From: a virus | Length of the DNA: 28,583 bases | Virus record (IMG/VR): IMGVR_UViG_3300009593_001592 | Span: 1 to 28,583 of that record | Reading direction: 5' to 3' (one strand) | Shown: piece after piece, positions 5,661 to 28,086 of the stretch | How the letters are laid out: every line of letters starts with the position of its first letter | Numbering within the stretch: position 1 is the stretch's first letter | Position numbers and translations under genes: made by a program | Notes under the pieces: generated by a model | Database searches by the model: none | What the model saw: the letters and a program-made list of their open reading frames with translations, nothing else | Told to the model about the DNA's origin: nothing

Positions 5661-6836
5661 ATGGATTTAGCATATTCATTAAACACATTTTACTTTTTAA
5701 TGAGTGGAGTCTTAGTCATGTGGATGGCTGCAGGTTTCACTATGTTAGAAGCTGGTTCAGTAAGAAGTAAGAATGTTATTGAGATACTTCTAAAGAATGT
5801 TGCACTTTATAGTGTTGCATCTGTAGGGTTCTTATTAGGGGGTTATTCCCTTATGTATGGGTGGGGAGATATAGAAACACATTCGGTGTATTCTGATTTC
5901 TTTTTTCAAGTAGTATTCGTTGCAACTGCAATGTCAGTAGTATCTGGTGCAGTCGCAGAACGAAAGAAGTTATGGACATTCTTATTGTTTGCCGCTATCT
6001 TCACTACAATCATATATCCAATCCAAGGTTCTTGGACATGGGGTGGTGGTTGGTTGAGTCAGAGAGGGTTCTTTGACTTCGCAGGTTCTGGTATAGTTCA
6101 TATGGCAGGCGCTTCAGCCGCACTCGCAGGAGTCATGATTCTTGGACCAAGAAAGGGTAAATACTTAAAAGACGGAACACCTAGACCAATACACGGTTCC
6201 AATGCGGCTCAAGTCGCATTAGGCACACTTATTTTATGGATGGGATGGTTTGGATTCAATGGTGGTTCACAACTCGCAATCACCGGTATAGAGAACGCAG
6301 ATGCAGTCGCAAAGATATTCGTAAACACTAATACTGCCGCTGCTGGTGGTCTTATATCTGCAATGATATTATCTAAATTATGGTTAGGAAAGACTGCCTT
6401 AAACGCCACAACGAATGGTGCATTGGCAGGTCTAGTAGTCATAACTGCTGACCCCTTAACACCTTCACCAGCAATCGCATTACTATATGGTTCACTAGGC
6501 GGATTAATGATGCCTGTTATCATGAGTTGGATAGAAAGAAAAGGTTGTGATGATCCAGTTGGTGCAATATCAGTTCATGGTGTCGCAGGTATTTTAGGAC
6601 TTATGTTAGTTCCTATACTAAATTCTGATGCAAGTTTCCTTCATCAAGCATATGGAACAGTCACGATATTTGGTTTTGTATTTGCATCATCATATCTATT
6701 ATGGTGGGCATTAGACAAGACTGTAGGTATAAGAGTCGGTGAACAAGAAGAAGTTGGTGGTTCAGATATGTGGGAAGCAGGTTCTAAAGCTTATCCATAC
6801 TTCATGAAAGGTCACGGCGAAGAATCAGATAAATAA
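5661..6836 (+). CDS. amt: Ammonium transporter (Amt/AmtB family)
   Basis: This 391-residue polytopic protein belongs to the Amt/Rh family, which moves ammonium across the inner membrane as a trimer of 11-span subunits. Family landmarks are MLEAGSVRSKN after span 1, TWGGGWL, DFAGSGIVHMAGA and ISVHGVAGILG. The pore twin histidines are H147 and H306, and D139 sits eight residues before H147, matching the E. coli D160/H168 spacing. Length is close to the family's mature size, and the protein lacks an obvious cleaved signal. The RBS is AGAGGAGA just before the ATG at 5661. The gene sits between gp46 and deformylase on the same strand, as a host-derived metabolic gene. All key pore residues seen are intact, so it is probably functional and could raise nitrogen uptake during infection. 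Confidence 0.95.
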   Translation: MDLAYSLNTFYFLMSGVLVMWMAAGFTMLEAGSVRSKNVIEILLKNVALYSVASVGFLLGGYSLMYGWGDIETHSVYSDFFFQVVFVATAMSVVSGAVAERKKLWTFLLFAAIFTTIIYPIQGSWTWGGGWLSQRGFFDFAGSGIVHMAGASAALAGVMILGPRKGKYLKDGTPRPIHGSNAAQVALGTLILWMGWFGFNGGSQLAITGIENADAVAKIFVNTNTAAAGGLISAMILSKLWLGKTALNATTNGALAGLVVITADPLTPSPAIALLYGSLGGLMMPVIMSWIERKGCDDPVGAISVHGVAGILGLMLVPILNSDASFLHQAYGTVTIFGFVFASSYLLWWALDKTVGIRVGEQEEVGGSDMWEAGSKAYPYFMKGHGEESDK

Positions 6837-18309: not shown

Positions 18310-18317
18310 CATAAATA
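18310..18317 (+). promoter_or_regulatory. Late-promoter-like CATAAATA before the curli region
   Basis: CATAAATA, one base from the T4 late consensus, lies 15 nt before the ATG at 18332 and just after the strong terminator. It is the only promoter candidate I see ahead of the membrane-csgF-csgG operon, which would make that operon late. A single near-match is modest evidence. Confidence 0.42.
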
Positions 18318-18331
18318 AGGGTGTAAATATT

Positions 18332-18625
18332 ATGAACTGGATAGAATTTTTAGCTGAAGTCGGAGCGCCAATCTTTGGTTCTCTTGTTATGGCGTTCTTC
18401 ATATTCTTAACCTTGAAGTATATCCTTGAGGGTGTGCTTGACAATGTTAAAGGTCTAACAGGTATTATTACCATGCTAGAAGATAGGGCAAGAGTTATGA
18501 ATAATGACATATTAAAAATCGACTTACTCATTTCACAAACTCTGGAGTTAAGACCAGATTTGGACAGAGTAGCACGGTCTGAAAATTTTGTAGAGGATGG
18601 AAACATAGATGCAAGAAGAGATTAA
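18332..18625 (+). CDS. Single-span membrane protein, paralogue of the next gene (97 aa)
   Basis: A 97-residue protein with one membrane span at about residues 12-30 (PIFGSLVMAFFIFLTLKY) and a helical, probably coiled-coil tail. It shares the aligned pattern L-x-E-x-G-x-P-I-x3-L-x-M-x2-F-I-x4-K-x3-E (from L7) with the gene at 18609 (from L29), so the two are duplicates. The layout (glycine-rich span, then charged helix) recalls BhlA/UviB-type holin-like proteins, without firm identity. It overlaps the next gene by 17 nt and lies directly upstream of csgF. Confidence 0.78.
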   Translation: MNWIEFLAEVGAPIFGSLVMAFFIFLTLKYILEGVLDNVKGLTGIITMLEDRARVMNNDILKIDLLISQTLELRPDLDRVARSENFVEDGNIDARRD

Positions 18626-18950
18626 CAGCGCAAGCGAAATAGAAGATATAACAGATTTAGAACTTGATTATCTTTCTCCTGTTGCAGACATGCTCAATGA
18701 GTTTGGATTCCCAATTATAATTGCTCTTGCAATGGGATATTTTATCTACTTTGTCTGGAAATTTGTGACGGAAGAATTAGAACCGCAGTTGGGTAAACAA
18801 CAAACGGTCCTTGTAAGACTTATCGACCAAATGAGAATGTTAGACCAAGACCAGATAAGATTGCAAGAAAAATTAAATACAGTGTTAGAGTATAAACAGG
18901 CTCTTGCACTTAGGGAGAAACCAAATGAAGATGATACTAAAGACAACTAA
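18609..18950 (+). CDS. Single-span membrane protein, paralogue of the previous gene (113 aa)
   Basis: A 113-residue protein with an acidic N-terminal extension (EINSASEIEDITDLELD), one span at about 34-52 (PIIIALAMGYFIYFVW) and a long heptad-like helix (LVRLIDQMRMLDQDQIRLQEKL). The span region aligns residue by residue with the preceding protein at an offset of 22. The two may form a hetero-oligomer. It overlaps its neighbours by 17 nt upstream and 26 nt downstream, so it is translationally tied to csgF. Confidence 0.78.
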   Translation: MQEEINSASEIEDITDLELDYLSPVADMLNEFGFPIIIALAMGYFIYFVWKFVTEELEPQLGKQQTVLVRLIDQMRMLDQDQIRLQEKLNTVLEYKQALALREKPNEDDTKDN

Positions 18951-19440
18951 TTTAGTCTTATTAACATTAATACTAGTAGCACCTTTGAGTGCATCACCAA
19001 TCAAACATGAGTTCAAGAATCCATCGTTTAGTGGAAAAGGAACTGCATCTCATTATCTTACCGTTGAGAACCAAGAGTTCACTCGTAAGAAAGAAATTGA
19101 AGATGCATTAGAGTCTGCTAGAAAGTCAGCTGAAAGAGCTGAAGATAATACAACCCTTGCTAAATTCATTCGTAATTTAGAGTCAAGAATATATGCACAA
19201 ATGGCTAAACAATTAGTCGAATCTATGTTTTCAAATGATACTGGTGTTCGTTTTGGTTCATTTGTATTAGAGGGTTCAACAGTGACATATGAAGTAATCA
19301 CCAACGCTGATGGTTCTGAATTTATTCGAATGACTATTATTGGAGAAGATGGAACAGAAACTATCTTAGAAATACCAATAGGATCAGGAAACTTTGGACA
19401 AGATTCTGATGGAACAGGTGAAGGCGATGGGTCTGGCTAA
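18925..19440 (+). CDS. csgF: CsgF-like curli assembly protein
   Basis: CsgF caps the CsgG outer-membrane pore and helps anchor curli nucleation at the cell surface. The start at 18925 is preceded by AGGGAGAAA and gives a signal peptide (NLVLLTLILVAPLSA) cleaved before SPIKHEF. The mature start HEFKNPSFSG matches the CsgF hallmark 'FxNPxFGG' that inserts into CsgG. A helical neck (LAKFIRNLESRIYAQMAKQL) and a strand-rich C-terminal part (TYEVITNADGSEFIRMTI) follow. Length is 171 residues against about 138 in E. coli, with an extended helical insert and a Gly/Asp tail. It overlaps csgG by 14 nt. Confidence 0.9.
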   Translation: MKMILKTTNLVLLTLILVAPLSASPIKHEFKNPSFSGKGTASHYLTVENQEFTRKKEIEDALESARKSAERAEDNTTLAKFIRNLESRIYAQMAKQLVESMFSNDTGVRFGSFVLEGSTVTYEVITNADGSEFIRMTIIGEDGTETILEIPIGSGNFGQDSDGTGEGDGSG

Positions 19441-20422
19441 GTATTTCATACTAAGTCTACTTCTCTTATCGGGTTGTGCATCAATACCGAAGTTCTCCTA
19501 TGAACCACAAGATTGCACATACTCAGAAGGATTCAACAAAGATATACTCACAGGCATTAATAAAATTATGTCTAGGAAGTATATTTGTGTTGACATGCCA
19601 GAAGTAATAAGACTTCCTGCCCACCTAGAATTATTAAACTTACCACCTGCTGAAACTATGCCAGTGGTTGCAGTCTATAAGTTCTTAGATAAAACAGGTC
19701 AAAGAAAGTCAGAAGATAATATTGCATCATTCTCTACCGCAGTCTCACAAGGTGCTGAGGCAATGGTAATTGATGCACTTAAAACCGCCGGTGGCGGGAA
19801 ATGGTTTAGAGTTGTCGAGAGAGGTGGTATAGACAACTTAGTTAGAGAGAGGCAGATTATTCGTTCTGCCAGACAAGATTTTGCTGCTGCTACAGAAACA
19901 GAAGCACAAGGCATCCAACCTCTGCTCTTCGCAGGTATTATAATAGAGGGTGGTGTAATTGGTTATGATTCTAATCTACTAACCGGAGGTCGAGGCGCAA
20001 GAACTCTCGGGATTGGATTTAGTAAACAGTATCGTCAAGATGCTGTGACAATTTCTATGAGGGCTGTTAGTGTTCTCACAGGAGAAGTATTATTGAATGT
20101 CCAAACAAGAAAGACTATTCTTTCTTATGGTGCTGGGGGAGATGTATTCCGATTCATTGAAGAAGGAACACAACTAGTCGAGTTTGAGGACGGCGTGGGT
20201 AATAATGAGAGCGTGACATACGCAACACGGTCAGCTATTGAAGCTGCTGTGTTGGAATTAATATACCAAGGACACGATAGAGGTTTTTGGGTATTGGCAA
20301 AAGAACATCAAGACGAAGATGACGAAGAAGAACGATTAGATGAATGGTATGAAAATGCCAATGAAGTTATCGGTGGAGATGAACTAAAACCAATAGAAGA
20401 AAAGGAAAAAGAAAATGAATAA
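19427..20422 (+). CDS. csgG: CsgG-like outer-membrane secretion channel lipoprotein
   Basis: CsgG forms the nine-subunit outer-membrane pore that secretes curlin subunits. The product is 331 residues (E. coli about 277), with a lipoprotein signal MGLAKYFILSLLLLSGC and lipid-modified C17. Family blocks include VVAVYKFLDKTGQRK, KWFRVVERGGIDNLVRERQII and AGIIIEGGVIGYDSN, then the strand-turn region GIGFSKQYRQDAVTISMRAV and VLTGEVLLNVQTRKTI. A Glu/Asp-rich C-terminal tail extends beyond the usual end. The ATG at 19427 was chosen because it starts the signal directly. It overlaps csgF upstream and the curlin-like gene downstream, forming one operon. Confidence 0.95.
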   Translation: MGLAKYFILSLLLLSGCASIPKFSYEPQDCTYSEGFNKDILTGINKIMSRKYICVDMPEVIRLPAHLELLNLPPAETMPVVAVYKFLDKTGQRKSEDNIASFSTAVSQGAEAMVIDALKTAGGGKWFRVVERGGIDNLVRERQIIRSARQDFAAATETEAQGIQPLLFAGIIIEGGVIGYDSNLLTGGRGARTLGIGFSKQYRQDAVTISMRAVSVLTGEVLLNVQTRKTILSYGAGGDVFRFIEEGTQLVEFEDGVGNNESVTYATRSAIEAAVLELIYQGHDRGFWVLAKEHQDEDDEEERLDEWYENANEVIGGDELKPIEEKEKENE

Positions 20423-21161
20423 ATTTTTATTAAGTATATTATTACTTTGTGGAATGTCGACATCATTCGTTTTCGCCGCTGCTACTGATGATAACGAAGT
20501 TATGATAACACAAACTGGAGACACTTTGAAGTTATATGTTGACCAAGTTGGTTTTGGTAATAAAATGGGACTGAACAACTTTTCAAGTGGTTCAGGTTCG
20601 AACATGACTATTACTGGTGTCACTTTGGATTTCAACATCGACATGATAGGTAACCAGAACTTGTTATTCGGAACAGTTGTCGCAGATACATCAGACTACA
20701 CTTTATTAATGACTGGAGACGAGAACTCAATAAACTGGACTATAGGCGCCAGTGGATCATCTGATGACTCAGACATTAATTTTAACATGACTGGAGATTC
20801 TAATGTCTTTGACTTAGACCAAGGTTCTGTTGCAAGTGCGGAAAGATTAAATGCAGACTTAGTGATAATCGGCGGAAGTAATGTATTCGATGTAGATTGG
20901 GAATCAGATGATGTCACATGGAACTTTGACATAACTGGTGATTCAAACAACATTAACACTTTGCAGAAAGACGGTTCACAGACATTGAATTTTGATTTAA
21001 CTGGCGATGGCGCTGATGTAGATATCAATCAACTATCCGGTTCATGTGTATCAGGTGCAGGCAATGGATGTGCAACACCAAATTCACATATTACATTGGT
21101 TATAGACAGTGATAACTCAATTATTCAAATTAACCAGAAAGACGCTGCTAACGACAGTTAG
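20415..21161 (+). CDS. Exported curlin-repeat-like protein (248 aa)
   Basis: This secreted, Asp/Asn/Gly/Ser-rich protein looks like a curlin (CsgA/CsgB-type) amyloid subunit. It has a signal peptide ending near FVFA-A and a start 8 nt inside the csgG end (ATGAATAA). The first repeat DQVGFGN matches the curlin 'QxGxxN' core. Later units are degenerate, about 20-28 residues, built as alternating hydrophobic strands plus a GDxN turn: MIGNQN, MTGDEN, MTGDSN, IGGSN, ITGDSN, LTGDGAD, IDSDN. A CVSGAGNGC loop (CX7C) interrupts the last units. It would be exported through CsgG. A major versus minor subunit cannot be told apart. Confidence 0.85.
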   Translation: MNKFLLSILLLCGMSTSFVFAAATDDNEVMITQTGDTLKLYVDQVGFGNKMGLNNFSSGSGSNMTITGVTLDFNIDMIGNQNLLFGTVVADTSDYTLLMTGDENSINWTIGASGSSDDSDINFNMTGDSNVFDLDQGSVASAERLNADLVIIGGSNVFDVDWESDDVTWNFDITGDSNNINTLQKDGSQTLNFDLTGDGADVDINQLSGSCVSGAGNGCATPNSHITLVIDSDNSIIQINQKDAANDS

Positions 21162-22272
21162 TCTAGTCTTTCTATTATCATTCAGTGGGTTCGCTCTAAG
21201 TGAACCCATTGGTGGTATTGTAGAAAATAAAGGTGTCACATCTGTAAAGAGAGGCGATGAACGATTAGATACTGATGTCGGAACAGACATAGTTTTATAT
21301 GATGAAGCAGAAACTGCCAACGGCAGAATGTTAATAGAGTTTCTTGACGAAGAGAAACTCTCATTAACAGAAAATAGTCTTGTCTACATTGACGAGGCGT
21401 ATTACGATCCAGACCCAAGTTTATCAAAGATGTCTATCAGAATGGTAAGAGGAACATCTAGATTTGCCTCGGGTGCTGGTAACAGAATTAAGAAAGCAAA
21501 TGTTGATGTAGCCACACCTACGGCGAACATCACAATGAGAGGGACCGATTTCACCACAACCATAGATGAGTTGGGTAGGACAATGGTCATTCTTTTACCT
21601 GATGAAGAAACAGGCGAATCATCAGGAGAAATTTTAGTTTATAATGATGGTGGCGAGACAGTTTTAAACGAGGCATATCAGGCAACTACAGTCGCCTCTT
21701 ATGATTCACCACCAACAAGTCCAGTGACAGTGCTGGGCATATCACCTAACTTGATTGACAATATGTTCATTGTGAATCCACCACCTGCAATACGACAGGC
21801 GATGGAAGAATCATATGCAGATGAACAGAACTCAGACCAAGGCATACTAGATGTTGACTTCTTAGAATTCAATGAACTAGAATCAGATGCATTGAGTGAC
21901 ACCATGGAAGGAGATTTTACAGAATTGGATATTGATTATCTAGATGTAGACTTCTTAACCGATTTACTAGATGTCGTAGAAGCACTAGTTAAAACTAAAG
22001 TGGTGTTAGCAGATAAACAGGCAGGTACCGGCGCTGGTGATATCGGAAGTTTCACCATTAAAGGCGCAGTAGCGGGATTCAATAAAGACTCGCAGTATAA
22101 CATCTTCGAACAAGACGGAGACTTAGTCCTTTACAGAAATGTAAATGGAACTATAAATATAATAATAGCAGCAGGAGGTTCTGGATTTATAGACACCACT
22201 GTAGATGGTTATGAAGGTATCATAACATTCGGTGATGGAGACGGAATTGAAATTGTTATTAGACAAAACTAG
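21109..22272 (+). CDS. Exported FecR-domain protein
   Basis: This 387-residue protein has an N-terminal signal (KTLLTTVSLVFLLSFSGFALS) and a FecR-type periplasmic domain: GGIVENKGVTSVKRG, then a strand series and VDVATPTANITMRGTDF, whose 'TP.a....RGT.f' block is the family hallmark. A long acidic middle region (about 235-290) repeats LD(V/I)DFL-type units, and the C-terminus is strand-rich with Gly/Asp turns. No inner-membrane anchor beyond the signal is seen. The only start allowing the signal is GTG 21109, which overlaps the curlin-like gene by 53 nt. FecR domains usually sense or scaffold in the periplasm; here a link to fibre assembly or to the CHASE2 cyclase is likely from context. Confidence 0.85.
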   Translation: MITQLFKLTRKTLLTTVSLVFLLSFSGFALSEPIGGIVENKGVTSVKRGDERLDTDVGTDIVLYDEAETANGRMLIEFLDEEKLSLTENSLVYIDEAYYDPDPSLSKMSIRMVRGTSRFASGAGNRIKKANVDVATPTANITMRGTDFTTTIDELGRTMVILLPDEETGESSGEILVYNDGGETVLNEAYQATTVASYDSPPTSPVTVLGISPNLIDNMFIVNPPPAIRQAMEESYADEQNSDQGILDVDFLEFNELESDALSDTMEGDFTELDIDYLDVDFLTDLLDVVEALVKTKVVLADKQAGTGAGDIGSFTIKGAVAGFNKDSQYNIFEQDGDLVLYRNVNGTINIIIAAGGSGFIDTTVDGYEGIITFGDGDGIEIVIRQN

Positions 22273-22279
22273 GAGAGAT

Positions 22280-22435
22280 ATGAACATCAATATTGATTTT
22301 GAAAGATTAAGGCAGTGGCACGAAAACGCAGTTTGGGAAGTTGCTGACTGGTTCAACTTAGATGAGTATCAAATGTTATGGGTGGCATGGGCCGAAGGCC
22401 TCATATTAGGATTATTATTGTGGTGGATATTTTAA
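22280..22435 (+). CDS. Small membrane protein (51 aa)
   Basis: The ATG at 22280 has an RBS (AGGAGAG, 22271-22277) and gives a 51-residue protein. The N-terminal part is amphipathic and tryptophan-rich (FERLRQWHENAVWEVADWF), and the C-terminus is a single span (MLWVAWAEGLILGLLLWWIF). It overlaps the second curlin-like gene by 13 nt. No family is recognised. Placement inside the curli region suggests a membrane role in export or lysis. Confidence 0.72.
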   Translation: MNINIDFERLRQWHENAVWEVADWFNLDEYQMLWVAWAEGLILGLLLWWIF

Positions 22436-23262
22436 AGAAAACATTAAGTAGCATATTCATATTGGGTGTATTGTATGCACATGCATCCAATGTTTATGCT
22501 GGTGATGATAATACTATCAATATTATCCAAGTTGGAAAGGGAGATGATTTAGAACTTACAATCACTCAAGAAGGATTCAATAATGATATCTTCTTCTCTA
22601 TTGGAGATGGTGATGATTTAACCATTGACCTAAAACAAGTTGGTAATTATAACGAACTTGGTTGGACAAATGATTCTCCAGGTTGGGGTTCTGGTGCATC
22701 TTGGGGTGGTGATATAGATTACGATGACCAAAATATTAAACTCTGGCAGAACTGCACCAAAAATTCTTCTTGTAATAAGAATGATATTCAATTTCATATA
22801 TCATATGGAACAAACAATAAGTTCCATTGGGCTCAAGGATTCATAATAGATAGTAGAACCGACACTAACTGGTCAAAGGATAATACAGAAGGTGGTGGAC
22901 ATTATATTACCGCAGACATACATGGTAGTAATAATTCAATAATAGGGCATCAAAGAAACTGTTCAGCAGGAACATGTTCAGGACATCAAGCAAGAATTTA
23001 TTTGTATGGTGATAACAATGATGTATTTGGTCAACAACAAGCAGACGGCGTAAAAGAATTCTATCTAACTATTAACAATGATGACAATACAGTAGACTTT
23101 CTTCAAGATGGTTCAGGCGAACACAATGCAACTATAACCTTGAATGGTAATTATGGAACTACTCTTGACCTAACACAACACAGTAATACAACACAAAATT
23201 ATTCACTAACACAGAACTGCCAGACATCTGGTGGTTGCACAGTCACAGTGACACAAAACTAA
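22423..23262 (+). CDS. Second exported curlin-repeat-like protein (279 aa)
   Basis: The GTG at 22423 gives a 279-residue protein with a signal peptide (TLSSIFILGVLYAHASNVYA) cut before GDDN. Two units fit the curlin core closely: ITQEGFNNDI and LKQVGNYNEL (QxGxxN). Further repeats are looser, with strand-turn units around YGTNNKF, HGSNNSI, YGDNNDVFGQQ and NNDDNTVDFLQ. Three short cysteine-bracketed loops occur: CTKNSSC, CSAGTC and CQTSGGC. It ends in a Gln/Thr-rich repeat (LTQNC, VTVTQN). The sequence differs from the first curlin-like protein, so the two could be a major/minor pair exported by CsgG. It overlaps the small membrane gene upstream. Confidence 0.85.
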   Translation: MDILKKTLSSIFILGVLYAHASNVYAGDDNTINIIQVGKGDDLELTITQEGFNNDIFFSIGDGDDLTIDLKQVGNYNELGWTNDSPGWGSGASWGGDIDYDDQNIKLWQNCTKNSSCNKNDIQFHISYGTNNKFHWAQGFIIDSRTDTNWSKDNTEGGGHYITADIHGSNNSIIGHQRNCSAGTCSGHQARIYLYGDNNDVFGQQQADGVKEFYLTINNDDNTVDFLQDGSGEHNATITLNGNYGTTLDLTQHSNTTQNYSLTQNCQTSGGCTVTVTQN

Positions 23263-23322
23263 CATGACACTCAAGGCGAAAGTAATAAGATTTCTTGAAT
23301 GGTGTCTCACTAAGGTAGTATC

Positions 23323-23592
23323 ATGGAAGTAGAATGTCCTGAAAATAATATCTGTTTCACTGAACAAGAGTGGTCAGATTTCTTAGTTGAATATGAACTT
23401 GATATCGTAAACGAAGTTGGTAGTATGCCAGACTCATCAGGTGATGTTCAGGCCGCCACAGACTTTGCATGGGAACTTTTATTCTTATCTCCATGGGAAC
23501 TTGCATACATATCAATCCCTATGGGAGTTCTCGCATTTTATGGTCTAACAATCTACGCACTTTTTAAATACATTCAAAAGAAGTTCTCATAA
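23323..23592 (+). CDS. Small membrane protein (89 aa)
   Basis: An 89-residue ORF with an acidic N-terminal half (CPENNICFTEQEWSDFLVEY) and one C-terminal span (AYISIPMGVLAFYGLTIYALF) ending in a basic tail (KYIQKKFS). The acidic half would lie outside the cytoplasm. The RBS is weak (TAAGG). No family is recognised. It continues the curli-region gene string, on the same strand and with a 60-nt gap before it. Confidence 0.7.
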   Translation: MEVECPENNICFTEQEWSDFLVEYELDIVNEVGSMPDSSGDVQAATDFAWELLFLSPWELAYISIPMGVLAFYGLTIYALFKYIQKKFS

Positions 23593-23607
23593 AGGAGTAA
23601 GTTTTGA

Positions 23608-23838
23608 ATGCCAAAGAAAGAATTCACATCGAAGAAGAAGTTTTCAACTTTAGTTCGTATGCCATATCAAGAGGCGATACGAATAATTCTAAGGACAATA
23701 GACTACCACAATAGAATGGCATTAGAGGACAGTGACAACAGAGATTTTCATATGCAACAATCTGTAAGACTCAGACAATGGATGGTAGATATGAAAGATT
23801 TCATACACAAAAATGAAGAAGATATAAATTATGAATGA
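23608..23838 (+). CDS. Hypothetical basic protein (76 aa)
   Basis: A 76-residue cytoplasmic-looking ORF with RBS AAAGGAG (23592-23598). The N-terminus is lysine-rich (PKKEFTSKKKF), followed by helices (YQEAIRIILRTIDYHNR, RLRQWMVDMKDFIHK). It has no motif I recognise. It overlaps the next small membrane gene by 8 nt (ATGAATGA). Confidence 0.72.
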   Translation: MPKKEFTSKKKFSTLVRMPYQEAIRIILRTIDYHNRMALEDSDNRDFHMQQSVRLRQWMVDMKDFIHKNEEDINYE

Positions 23839-23968
23839 AAGAATAGTCAGACTCAAAGGCGAATGGAGAATCAAGAAGAGAAAAGAATTACAGAAGAGAA
23901 TTCTTAATTGGGTTCTTATGATTGCACTTATTGGTGCCGCTGTTTATGTTTATCTCAATTGGATGTAA
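23831..23968 (+). CDS. Small membrane protein (45 aa)
   Basis: A 45-residue ORF with a highly basic N-terminus (RIVRLKGEWRIKKRKELQKR) and one C-terminal span (VLMIALIGAAVYVYLNW). It overlaps the previous stop and its own stop directly abuts the ATG of the adenylate cyclase gene (TAA then ATG), so the three are probably translated together. Function unknown; it could assist the cyclase in the membrane. Confidence 0.65.
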   Translation: MNERIVRLKGEWRIKKRKELQKRILNWVLMIALIGAAVYVYLNWM

Positions 23969-25855
23969 ATGTATAATTGGAAGACTGTATTAATAACCAT
24001 AGTTGCACTAGTCGGTGTTAAGATATGGTCGCCTTATCTAATAGATAATGTTAGATGGTCTTACTTCGATGTTCTACATTCATCAAAAGAAAAAGTTCAA
24101 GTAGAAGACATTCTTCTAGTAAATATAGATGAAAAGTCGATAGACGCCCTAGGTCAATACCCATTCCCTAGAGAGATATATGCCGATACTCTATGGGAAA
24201 CTCATCATTCAAACACTCATGTATTCAATATACTATTCTCAGAAGAAGATAGATTTGGTGGAGACGAAGTCTTTGCAAACGCATTAGAGAATAGATTAAC
24301 CATATTATCATCTGCACCAACAGTTCAAAAAGAATCAGGCAACGCACCATTTGTAAACACATCTGTATTTGGAGATGGTGATATACAAGACCATGTATGG
24401 AACTTTCCAGGTTTGGTGAGTCCCCTTCCCGGATTACAAAGTAAGACATGGGGTATGGGAGTCACAGTTGCCACACCTAGTGTGGCGAAAACCCCTAACT
24501 TCGATGGTACCATCAGGTCAGCTCCGCTGGTCATCCAGGCCAATGGTCAGCTCTATCCTAGTTTAGGGTTTGAAACACTTAGAGCTCTGTATGACCAACC
24601 TAACTATCAAACTAGAGTCACGAAAGAAGAGGGTATAGTATGGGTAAAAATGGGGAGAGACTCGCCAATCGAAACCACATCAAGTGGTGACTTAATGATT
24701 TCATACTGGAATCAATTTGAATCTATATCGTTTTCAGATTTAAAAGAATCAGATATAGAAGGAAAGATTCTAGTCTATGGTCTTACTGCTGAAGGGTTAG
24801 CTAATCCAATTTCAACCCCAGCGGGTGTAATGTATCCCCACGAAGTTCAAGCGAACCTAATCCAAACCGTCTCGACAGGAGTTCAAATACAACAATCCGA
24901 CTTTCTTGAATTTCTTGAAGTCGTTGTTCTTTTGATAGTCCTTCTATTAATATTGGTATCGGTTTACAAACTTCCCACAGCCGTCTCGGCGATAACTTGT
25001 TCCAGTATCGTGTTAGTTCAGGTGGGTGGGGGTTTCTACTTATGGTCTTCATCTCTCGTTCTATTCGATATTTTCTGGTCATCGATTTCCTCCATAGTTG
25101 TTTTCGGCCATGCCTCTTTCAACCAATACTATACGACCTATCAACTCAAAGAACAAATTAAGAAGCAGTTCCAGAAATATTTATCTCCTGACATGATTGA
25201 AGAACTACAGAAAGACCCAAGTAAACTTAGACTTGGAGGGGATAGAAAAGAATTATCCTTCTTATTCGCAGACATAGTTGGATTCACTCCCATATCAGAA
25301 GCCTATATGAAGAATGATGATCCGGAAGGATTAGTATTACTTATCAATAGATTCTTAGATGGTATGACAAAGGTGGTAATAGAGAATGGTGGAACAGTAG
25401 ATAAGTATATGGGCGACTGTTTAATGGCATTTTGGAATGCTCCGTTAGATTGTCCTAATCATGCACAGATGGCTTTAAAGACTGCAATGGAAATAGAACT
25501 ACTCACAGAGAGAATGAATCAAGAAATTAAAGATGAGGGTTTAGATTTACCACCAGTAGTCATCGGCACAGGAATTAACACAGGTCCTTGTATAGTCGGC
25601 AACATGGGTTCTGAATTGAGATTCGATTACTCAGTAGTGGGTGATGCAGTTAACCTGGCCGCAAGGTTAGAAGTTCAAACAAGACAATACGATACACCCA
25701 TTCTAATGTCAGAGTTCACAAAGAAACAAGTTGATTGTGAATGGCAGTATATGGATGAAATAAATGTAAAGGGTAAATCAATACCTGTTAAGATATACGC
25801 ACCAATGTTTACAGATGAGAGTGGAAGTAAAGTGGTTCGTAAACTCAATAAATAA
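23969..25855 (+). CDS. CHASE2-domain class III adenylate cyclase
   Basis: This 628-residue membrane protein has the CHASE2-cyclase layout: an N-terminal span (about 5-20), a large extracytoplasmic CHASE2 sensor (about 30-300; ILLVNIDEKSIDALGQYPF and RSAPLVIQANGQLYPSL are typical), C-terminal spans between about 316 and 382, and a class III nucleotide cyclase domain (425-600). Catalytic residues are intact: metal-binding D435 (FADIVGFT) and D483 (YMGDCLM), N562 and R566 (GDAVNLAARLE). K479 with S555 (FDYSVVG) fits adenylate rather than guanylate specificity. It would make cAMP in response to an envelope signal. It follows the curli region on the same strand. Bases about 24410-25130 use more G/C-ending codons than neighbours. 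Confidence 0.93.
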   Translation: MYNWKTVLITIVALVGVKIWSPYLIDNVRWSYFDVLHSSKEKVQVEDILLVNIDEKSIDALGQYPFPREIYADTLWETHHSNTHVFNILFSEEDRFGGDEVFANALENRLTILSSAPTVQKESGNAPFVNTSVFGDGDIQDHVWNFPGLVSPLPGLQSKTWGMGVTVATPSVAKTPNFDGTIRSAPLVIQANGQLYPSLGFETLRALYDQPNYQTRVTKEEGIVWVKMGRDSPIETTSSGDLMISYWNQFESISFSDLKESDIEGKILVYGLTAEGLANPISTPAGVMYPHEVQANLIQTVSTGVQIQQSDFLEFLEVVVLLIVLLLILVSVYKLPTAVSAITCSSIVLVQVGGGFYLWSSSLVLFDIFWSSISSIVVFGHASFNQYYTTYQLKEQIKKQFQKYLSPDMIEELQKDPSKLRLGGDRKELSFLFADIVGFTPISEAYMKNDDPEGLVLLINRFLDGMTKVVIENGGTVDKYMGDCLMAFWNAPLDCPNHAQMALKTAMEIELLTERMNQEIKDEGLDLPPVVIGTGINTGPCIVGNMGSELRFDYSVVGDAVNLAARLEVQTRQYDTPILMSEFTKKQVDCEWQYMDEINVKGKSIPVKIYAPMFTDESGSKVVRKLNK

Positions 25856-26628: not shown

Positions 26629-26952
26629 AGTTTATAAGAAGAGCTTGCGAAAGCGCTTAGTATTATAGACTTAATAAAAAGGGGTGGACCTATCAGAGAA
26701 GAGAAACCACACCGATAGAGTAAGTCGGACTAGACAGTTTACTGAAACTTGCCTAACGAACTTTATCACTGAGGATAGATTCCTTTCCGTGTTCGAGTCG
26801 GGACAATCCTCAATATAGTATGAGATGTTGGCTCTTATTATCTAACAGAGCTTTGTTAGACAATCATTGGAATATGTTCGCTCGAGGAAGATGACTCAAT
26901 AAGAACTCCAACATCCCATACGCCCTAATGCTCATTTGAGGTTAGGTATTTT
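26629..26952 (+). ncRNA. Putative novel structured non-coding RNA (~320 nt)
   Basis: The 413-nt gap between the oxygenase and hsp20 has no credible ORF but is dense in paired elements. 1: CTAAG/CTTAG (26625-26660) around GCTT-GCGA-AAGC, a GNRA-type tetraloop. 2: a pseudoknot-like order GTGG, CTATC, CCAC, GATAG (26684-26718). 3: AGTTT-ACTG-AAACT (26736-26749). 4: GAGGAT/ATCCTC (26771-26811) enclosing TTCCG/CGGGA. 5: a long-range stem GATGTTGG/CCAACATC (26824-26915), extended by TATG/CATA, enclosing TCTTATT/AATAAGA and the perfect hairpin TCTAACA/TGTTAGA. A terminator-like hairpin ends it. A strong promoter starts it. It matches no tmRNA, RNase P, 6S or tRNA signature I can see. It could also act partly as an hsp20 leader. 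Confidence 0.68.
26924..26952 (+). terminator. Terminator-like hairpin ending the structured RNA
   Basis: CCTAA/TTAGG encloses CTC-ATTT-GAG and is followed by TATTTT. It lies 29 nt before the hsp20 start and would end the structured RNA, while some read-through could feed hsp20, which has its own RBS but no other clear promoter. Confidence 0.5.
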
Positions 26953-26980
26953 AACAAACAGTCGCTTAAGGAGGACTATT

Positions 26981-27406
26981 ATGACAATCTATGACGATGT
27001 CTTCGGGAAATCATTCCCATTCGCAATCGGGTTCGACAGAACCATTCAACTATTAAATCGTGCTGAACATTTGCACGACACATCCAATTACCCACCTTAC
27101 AATATTGTAAAGATTGATGCTGAGAATTTCAGTGTTGAAGTTGCAGTTGCTGGGTTCGGTAAGAAAGATATATCTATCACAAAAGAAAAAGAAGTTCTTT
27201 TGATTGAAGGTAGTAAGAAAGATAACTTAAATGAAGATACAGAGTATGTTCATCGTGGGTTATCTGGAAGAACTTTCAGTAGAAAGTTTACACTCGCAGA
27301 CGATATTATCGTTAAGGGTGCAGACATGAAAGATGGTATATTGAGTGTATCTTTAGAAAGGATTATTCCAGAAGAAGATAAACCAGTTGAAATTAAAATA
27401 AAATAA
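26981..27406 (+). CDS. hsp20: Small heat-shock protein (Hsp20/IbpA family)
   Basis: The product is a 141-residue alpha-crystallin-type holdase that keeps unfolding proteins soluble. The N-terminus FGKSFPFAIGFDRTIQLL is IbpA-like, followed by the alpha-crystallin domain with YNIVKIDAENFSVEVAVAGF, LLIEGSKK and the closing HRGLSGRTFSRKFTLAD and DGILSVSLER blocks; IPEEDKPVEIKI is the usual C-terminal I-x-I-type tail. The start at 26981 has a perfect AAGGAGG (26968-26974). Hsp20 genes are common in marine T4-like phages. It lies behind the structured RNA. Confidence 0.95.
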   Translation: MTIYDDVFGKSFPFAIGFDRTIQLLNRAEHLHDTSNYPPYNIVKIDAENFSVEVAVAGFGKKDISITKEKEVLLIEGSKKDNLNEDTEYVHRGLSGRTFSRKFTLADDIIVKGADMKDGILSVSLERIIPEEDKPVEIKIK

Positions 27407-27461: not shown

Positions 27462-27534
27462 GCGGAGTTAGTTTAAGGCAAAACACTTAAATTCCATTTA
27501 AGAGTCTCTAGTTCAAATCTAGAACTCCGCTCCA
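27462..27534 (+). tRNA. tRNA-Gly (anticodon TCC)
   Basis: A complete cloverleaf: acceptor GCGGAGT/ACTCCGC, D arm GTTT/AAAC, anticodon stem CTTAA/TTAAG with loop ATTCCAT (T33, anticodon TCC, A37), a 4-nt variable loop, T arm TCTAG/CTAGA with loop TTCAAAT. The discriminator is T followed by an encoded CCA. U73, C35 and C36 are the expected bacterial glycine identity elements. It would read GGA codons, which are common in these AT-rich genes (GGA and GGT dominate). It is the only tRNA gene seen in the window. Confidence 0.95.
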
Positions 27535-27555: not shown

Positions 27556-28086
27556 ATGTTTAGAGAAGGACAACAATTAACTGTAGGTGATTTATTTCCT
27601 ACTTTCGAATTGCAAGGAGTTAATCCTGCAAACGACATAGCAGAGGTAAGTTATTCTCATGCTGAAAGAAATGATTGGAGTGTGTTTTACTTTTATCCAA
27701 AAGACTTCACATTCATATGCCCAACAGAAATTTCCGCTATGGACATTCTCAACAATGAGGCCAGAGTAGTTGGTCTCAGTGGTGATAATGAATTCTGTAA
27801 ACAGGCCTGGAGAAATGTAAATGGAATGATTAGAGAAATCAATCATGAACTTGCAGCTGACACTGGACTATACTTATCTTCTGAATTAGGAATCATTGAT
27901 GTTGACAATGGTGTTTGTTTTAGAGCAACATTCATTGTTGATCCTGATGGAGTAATTCAAAGTGTTTCAGTCAACGCATTAGATACAGGAAGAAATGCAC
28001 AAGAAATCTTAAGAACATTACAAGCATTAAAAGCTGGTGGTCTTACAGGTTGTGAATGGAATCCTGGCGATGACTTCGTAGCATAA
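27556..28086 (+). CDS. 2-Cys peroxiredoxin (AhpC/Prx1 type)
   Basis: This thiol peroxidase (176 residues) reduces hydrogen peroxide and organic peroxides. The peroxidatic cysteine C55 sits in DFTFICPTE, preceded by FYFYPKD; the resolving cysteine C166 is in the C-terminal TGCEWNPGDDF, so it is a typical 2-Cys enzyme. The conserved ATFIVDPDG and GRNAQEILR blocks are present. The RBS is AGAGGAGA (27546-27553). It stands 21 nt after tRNA-Gly, probably on the same transcript. An AhpF-type or thioredoxin reductant is not encoded here, so host thioredoxin would be needed. Confidence 0.95.
   Translation: MFREGQQLTVGDLFPTFELQGVNPANDIAEVSYSHAERNDWSVFYFYPKDFTFICPTEISAMDILNNEARVVGLSGDNEFCKQAWRNVNGMIREINHELAADTGLYLSSELGIIDVDNGVCFRATFIVDPDGVIQSVSVNALDTGRNAQEILRTLQALKAGGLTGCEWNPGDDFVA

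Follow-up and report, generated by a model that had tools for sequence, protein, structure and literature searches.

Gene content of the operon

The DNA considered here (the window) is a fragment of a viral genome, the 28,583-base IMG/VR virus record IMGVR_UViG_3300009593_001592, in which positions 18332–25855 form a single operon on the + strand with mostly overlapping genes. The operon encodes two one-span membrane paralogues (TM1 and TM2), CsgF, CsgG, a first curlin (curlin 1), a FecR-domain protein, a second curlin (curlin 2) and a CHASE2 adenylate cyclase, and additionally holds three small open reading frames (ORFs). An initial annotation, made from the sequence alone, had read this string as a curli-like export island, and all of the genes that it named are present, strand-coherent and for the most part overlapping. 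We conclude with high confidence that they constitute an intact operon for curli (type VIII) secretion, which also supplies the subunits.

CsgF (18925–19440; + strand, as are all features of the operon) carries a signal peptide and the sequence HEFKNPSFSG, and was matched by Pfam PF10614 at an expectation value (E) of 1e-11, with 45.6 bits against a cut-off of 25.8; searches of solved structures with CsgF gave no meaningful match. CsgG (19427–20422), the outer-membrane lipoprotein pore, has the lipobox LLLSGC and matched PF03783 at E 2e-51 and the Escherichia coli CsgG structures at E 8e-49. The relation to CsgG and CsgF that had been proposed from sequence was therefore found by hidden Markov model (HMM) search. 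A change in the CsgG constriction loop was considered as a phage-specific feature and rejected, since bacterial CsgG from outside the enterics carries the same change.

The 2 secreted repeat proteins fall in one HMM family. Curlin 2 (22378–23262) matched the curlin repeat PF07012 at E 2e-9, over the cut-off, and its family profile matched curlin fibres solved by cryo-electron microscopy, 8c50 (5e-10) and 8enq (4e-5). The AlphaFold2 model of curlin 1 (20415–21161) is all-beta, with a predicted local distance difference test score of 79 and a predicted template modelling score of 0.76, and it aligned to parallel beta-helix proteins over most of its length, with Z scores of 10–17. These results agree with the beta-solenoid fold expected of the repeat proteins in the initial annotation. 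The FecR-domain protein (21109–22272) is exported and matched PF04773 (E 7e-8); the true start of its gene may lie downstream of 21109. The cyclase (23969–25855) matched CHASE2 (E 4e-31) and Guanylate_cyc (E 6e-17), and alignment of its motifs FADIVGFT, VDKYMGD and VNLAARLE with CyaB (3r5g) indicated that the catalytic metal-binding, lysine and N/R residues of this class III enzyme are kept.

The components that characterize type VIII secretion, namely CsgG, CsgF and secreted curlin-repeat subunits, are thus all found in the window. The csg operons of E. coli resemble it in CsgG, CsgF and curlin repeats, contain CsgC, CsgD and CsgE as well and are not known to include FecR or a CHASE2 cyclase. 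The CsgE gate of E. coli-type (gammaproteobacterial) curli was not found, although CsgE does not define the whole curli family. CsgE, CsgC and CsgD had been listed together as absent; for CsgE (PF10627) this held, in that no match over the cut-off was obtained in 9 cassette-bearing phages and 2 Caulobacteraceae genomes (one weak match, in genome G412, lay under the cut-off at E 0.005), while no separate search was aimed at CsgC or CsgD. According to PMC3521004, csgC, csgD and csgE are lacking in all Alphaproteobacteria, so that their absence is not a sign of an incomplete system.

Conservation in related viruses

In IMG/VR, a CsgG relative is encoded on at least 382 viral stretches, from which 80 loci were retained. 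The order TM, TM, CsgF, CsgG, curlin, FecR, curlin, cyclase is present in 32/32 full-length loci, including those of phages HTVC008M and Melnitz, several of the 32 being near-identical and the number of independent cases correspondingly smaller. Curlin 1 is near-constant in length (mostly 242–250 amino acids), and curlin 2, which evolves faster, spans 216–441 amino acids. Ratios of nonsynonymous to synonymous substitution rates (dN/dS) were 0.01–0.27 in close pairs for every cassette gene, indicating purifying selection, with values for curlin 2 of up to 0.46 in more distant pairs. The window CsgG is about 50% identical to cultured-phage CsgG over the matched part, and in a CsgG tree its group stands apart from HTVC008M and Melnitz. 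Another relative, 44% identical to the window's CsgG, lies on a 1.5-kb unverified low-coverage wastewater contig deposited as 'Salmonella phage S.Kent 1-2-1' (OR851715.1; locus L234), which is probably not a Salmonella phage.

These data bear on the idea that the cassette is a decayed passenger, a bacterial set of genes retained by chance. Curli genes are described as lacking in the hosts of 2 cultured relatives (PMC9004378 and PMC9599517), which would suit such a history; the number of viral stretches with CsgG relatives, the fixed order, the dN/dS values of close pairs and the cassette expression reported in metatranscriptomes (PMC9599517) all argue against it, and we regard it as exceedingly improbable.

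The upstream membrane pair

TM1 (18332–18625; 97 amino acids, phrog_18771) and TM2 (18609–18950; 113 amino acids) are paralogous, and each has one hydrophobic segment with an acidic N-side and a basic C-side, by which their topology is probably N-out/C-in. In PMC9599517, the gene position upstream of CsgF is labelled 'histidine kinase, sometimes two'. HTVC008M and Melnitz carry the same 2 small genes at this position, and from position, number and size we infer that the published histidine kinase is the TM pair. Searches of Pfam and NCBIfam gave a kinase family match in 0/16 members of the pair, and the members, at 84–127 amino acids, are below the size of a kinase core; judged from their sequences, the label appears doubtful.

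The TM pair is present in each viral cassette whose DNA extends upstream. In a reverse search by the TM pair alone, of which the best 80 matches were kept so that rare free-standing copies could escape, cassette genes adjoin the pair at 73/75 of the further loci among the matches listed, and at the other 2 the DNA stops directly past the pair. At 13 of these 73 loci (L134, L135, L136, L138, L142, L143, L146, L147, L160, L169, L171, L174 and L175) the pair is oriented towards the other curli genes from the opposite strand and still adjoins them; adjacency that survives such rearrangement argues for functional linkage. Within the phage collection the pair was found in HTVC008M and the Melnitz strains only. 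A bacterial source for it was considered and rejected, since the pair was found in 0/6 bacterial genomes with csgG and since 289 alphaproteobacterial genomes yielded nothing except one weak match (E 5e-4). From these distributions, the pair appears to be a phage-specific part of the curli system.

A putative late promoter

T4-type late promoters have the form [AT]TAAATA, with a cyanophage form NATAAATA given in PMC2984593. A motif of this type, CATAAATA, is located at 18310–18317, 5' of the operon, as a candidate -10 box. Among 53 distinct loci, 43 (81%) have [AT]TAAATA within 70 nt 5' of TM1, against 2.65% of random 70-mers, and its frequency 5' of the other cassette genes is 0–13%. The total number of such motifs in the window is not above chance, and the evidence lies in the place of the motif rather than in its number. 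Melnitz has the motif in front of gp23, gp22, gp18, gp5 and further structural genes (capsid, sheath, baseplate), and it was not found there before gp43, gp41, gp44, gp45, gp46, gp47 or gp55; gp32 and hsp20, which it also precedes, are exceptions. Since the motif stands before TM1 in most loci and is rare before the other cassette genes, the cassette looks like a late transcription unit that begins with the TM pair.

Late timing bears on roles that have been proposed for phage curli. A fibre coat on the infected cell might stop competing phages, as proposed by Wittmers et al. 2022 (PMC9599517) and as suits the nature of curli as surface coatings. With a late promoter, such a coat would appear after much of the infection has elapsed, so that an early block becomes less likely; we consider a superinfection block, which the initial annotation had also suggested, an improbable purpose.

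Alternatively, CsgG and CsgF may have been turned to a new use as a gated outer-membrane pore, setting the timing of lysis or assisting it, a role that Buchholz 2022 proposed for Melnitz (PMC9004378). The late promoter, the failure to find a CsgE gate, the lack of clumping in Melnitz cultures reported in the same source and the presence of 2 small late one-span membrane proteins of holin-like gene size would all fit a lysis or release device. A bare pore, on the other hand, needs none of the curlins, FecR-domain protein and cyclase, which are present in 32/32 complete cassettes under purifying selection; the TM pair, found only with the cassette, is no general holin of these phages; and the change in the CsgG constriction loop is shared with bacterial CsgG outside the enterics. 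A pore for lysis alone, another role named in the initial annotation, is thus disfavored, as no complete cassette has lost either curlin, and a lysis device seems to us rather unlikely. Aggregation and coating, from the same annotation, are left standing as possible roles.

The FecR-domain protein

In the model of the FecR-domain protein, the N-terminal domain resembles the periplasmic signalling domain of PupR (Z 15.8), and a linker modelled with low confidence leads to a separate beta domain at the C-terminus. The sequence holds no anti-sigma part, its signal segment running straight into the periplasmic domain; we considered and rejected a role as an anti-sigma iron regulator, as there is no anti-sigma domain on the cytoplasmic side of a membrane span. 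The last strand of the protein is curlin-like (EIVIRQN in the window). A C-terminus of the form hydrophobic-x-hydrophobic-x-Q followed by 0–2 residues occurs in 65/65 complete phage FecR proteins, and the same terminal strand is present in the curlins of the same cassettes (with a longer tail in curlin 1) and in 2 Caulobacteraceae FecR proteins. It was not found in the other complete alphaproteobacterial FecR-domain ORFs examined, nor in CsgG, CsgF, the TM proteins or the cyclase. The strand common to FecR and the curlins ties the FecR-domain protein to the fibre system.

A FecR domain was also observed in an alphaproteobacterium at G008:C2:181835-182131 (L222), within an open frame of 6,679 amino acids with adhesin-like sequence, and the phage FecR model in addition matches an adhesin cell-surface anchoring domain (5ix9, Z 7.0). 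There are hints in these 2 observations that FecR domains anchor surface fibres.

Bacterial counterparts

Two freshwater Caulobacteraceae contigs from metagenome-assembled genomes (MAGs; L091 and L092) carry csgF-csgG-curlin-curlin-fecR-CHASE2 cyclase. They share with the window csgF, csgG, 2 curlins, the cyclase and a FecR protein with the same end strand; they differ from it in having no TM pair and in the place of FecR, which follows both curlins there and lies between them in the window. The flanking ORFs are, by eye rather than by family search, glycosyltransferase-like, peptidase-like and TonB-receptor-like. FecR and adenylate cyclase do, then, occur within a bacterial curli operon, contrary to the assertion that such operons are without the cyclase. 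At the other bacterial csgG loci examined, fecR and cyclase were not found. In the CsgG tree the Caulobacteraceae sequences nest among those of phages (support 99/83), and the tree does not settle the direction of transfer. We rejected the simple proposal that the phages took the operon from Caulobacteraceae, as bacterial CsgG nests inside that of the phages and the other bacterial loci are without fecR and cyclase.

The phage curli cassette was also observed on contigs of GTDB MAGs labelled Synechococcus, Flavobacteriales, Planctomycetes, Rhodobacteraceae and Pelagibacter (L084–L090, L093–L100 and L105). Where their DNA extends upstream these contigs have the phage-only TM pair, with the exceptions of L095, which begins just 5' of csgF, and L099, in both of which the pair was not found. 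These contigs, which are most of the bacterial MAG contigs with the cassette, look like mis-binned phage DNA, and contamination of this kind could give a false appearance of bacterial curli.

Comparison with published systems

Zaragoza-Solas 2020 (PMC7029224) described CsgF and CsgG with unidentified neighbors in pelagimyophages and proposed sibling capture. In pelagiphages of podo- and myo-type, Wittmers 2022 (PMC9599517) described the full set of CsgF, CsgG, CsgA/B, FecR, another CsgA/B and an adenylate cyclase. The window agrees with this pelagiphage type VIII secretion module in genes and order, in one or two small upstream genes and in having no CsgE; it differs in that a histidine kinase is named upstream in the published module, where the window has 2 one-span paralogues of about 100 amino acids without a kinase domain, and in that its CsgG clusters apart from that of the cultured phages. 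Melnitz EXVC044M (MZ577097) and HTVC008M (NC_020484) have gene for gene the same order as the window, which differs from them in 3 extra small ORFs and in a curlin 1 that is 31–34% identical to theirs.

The initial annotation had held that amyloid subunits of the phage's own went beyond earlier reports. The subunits are indeed present; they had already been published (PMC9599517), and both curlin repeat proteins are annotated, in the same gene order, in the GenBank entry MZ577097. The module is known in related SAR11 viruses, and what is new here is mostly detail. The following were not met in the cited parts of the published descriptions: the fixed order in all 32 complete cassettes, the T4-type late promoter before the first gene, the non-kinase TM pair found only with the cassette, the terminal strand common to FecR and curlins, a bacterial curli operon with FecR and adenylate cyclase, and the near-lack of cyclic AMP (cAMP) receptors in SAR11 that is described below.

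Other genes of the operon and window

The 3 small ORFs of the operon encode 67 amino acids with a C-terminal hydrophobic segment (22232–22435; in 31 loci), an 89-residue one-span protein (23323–23592; 12 loci) and a 76-residue soluble protein (23608–23838; 18 loci), so that a hydrophobic segment is present in 2 of the 3.

The gene set of the window is that of a T4-like marine phage, with SbcCD-type recombination genes, a clamp loader, Hsp20, peptide deformylase and tRNA-Gly. Its gp46 homologue has thousands of T4-like matches and shares about 45% identity with the Melnitz and HTVC008M proteins. OM43 and SAR11 bacteria are the hosts of 2 cultured phage groups with the same cassette. An AhpC/TSA-type peroxiredoxin (27556–28086) and Hsp20 (26936–27406) lie close to the tRNA-Gly gene (27462–27534) and are possible phage-carried stress genes. 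A full-length ammonium transporter gene (5661–6836; PF00909, E 2e-86) adjoins the gp46/47-type genes; relatives were observed in 268 viral stretches of IMG/VR, and phage-borne transporters of this family seem, from these matches, to be widespread.

The transporter is relevant to the suggestion, made in PMC7029224 and PMC9599517, that the curli pore admits nutrients or cofactors during infection, since an uptake gene is thereby also found in the window. An uptake aid would leave CsgF, 2 conserved secreted curlins and the late timing unexplained, and the FecR-domain protein lacks the anti-sigma part through which a connection with iron uptake would run; we consider this role very unlikely.

Discussion

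The homology, intactness, order, selection, late promoter and linkage described above were established by computation. From them we infer secretion, fibre assembly and an ecological purpose, and we think it likely that the cassette is a functional, late-expressed type VIII secretion system of the alphaproteobacterial kind, by which infected cells acquire a coat of fibres. Late RNA polymerase (gp55/gp33/gp45) would transcribe the operon from the promoter at 18310, and CsgF, CsgG, the FecR-domain protein and both curlins would be exported by the host Sec system. CsgG and CsgF would form the outer-membrane pore, through which the curlins would exit and assemble on the infected cell into fibres of stacked beta-solenoids. 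In the periplasm or outside the cell, the FecR-domain protein may be a third part of the fibre system, as anchor, cap or load sensor rather than as iron regulator; the cyclase, in the inner membrane, probably senses the state of the periplasm and makes cAMP; and the 2 small membrane proteins may act as phage-specific partners of the system.

As to purpose, the one that we consider most likely, although at less than even odds, is that late in infection the fibres glue infected cells or the debris of lysis to one another or to new hosts, such that progeny meet targets (sibling capture). Late aggregation or capture fits the late timing and the retention of both curlins. Still more speculative, and in our view doubtful when taken whole, is the proposition that phage curli are a late-phase, phage-refitted organelle and not a borrowed operon, with FecR, through the strand that it shares with the curlins, as fibre cap or anchor, the TM pair as an inner-membrane part invented by phages and the CHASE2 cyclase reporting the state of fibre or envelope through cAMP to an unrecognised target, in hosts that lack cAMP receptors.

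Several observations weigh against a fibre-forming system of this kind. Curlin 1 matched PF07012 at E 8e-4 with 19.7 bits, under the cut-off of 20.7; its profile matched no solved curlin; Foldseek alone, with its model, gave nothing significant; and curlin fibres are not listed among its structure matches, either by Foldseek or in the aligned second look. Fibres have yet to be observed, and the one published check for clumping was negative: cultures infected with Melnitz, which carries the same cassette, did not clump (PMC9004378). A cyclic nucleotide monophosphate (cNMP)-binding domain was found in 2/60 Pelagibacter-family genomes, as was a class III cyclase, one of the latter on a phage contig. 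A search of 9 cassette phage records gave no cNMP-binding protein, and a phage-borne cNMP-binding effector was accordingly rejected (0/9); if the host is SAR11-like, the cAMP made by the phage cyclase is without a known reader.

Future studies could be misled by the doubtful histidine kinase label and by taking FecR for an iron regulator. Aggregation, lysis and superinfection block predict different things, and the choice among them is narrowed by the late promoter, by the membrane pair confined to phages and by the invariant presence of curlins and pore. Viruses of the most abundant ocean bacteria may alter the surface of the infected cell by growing amyloid fibres on it.

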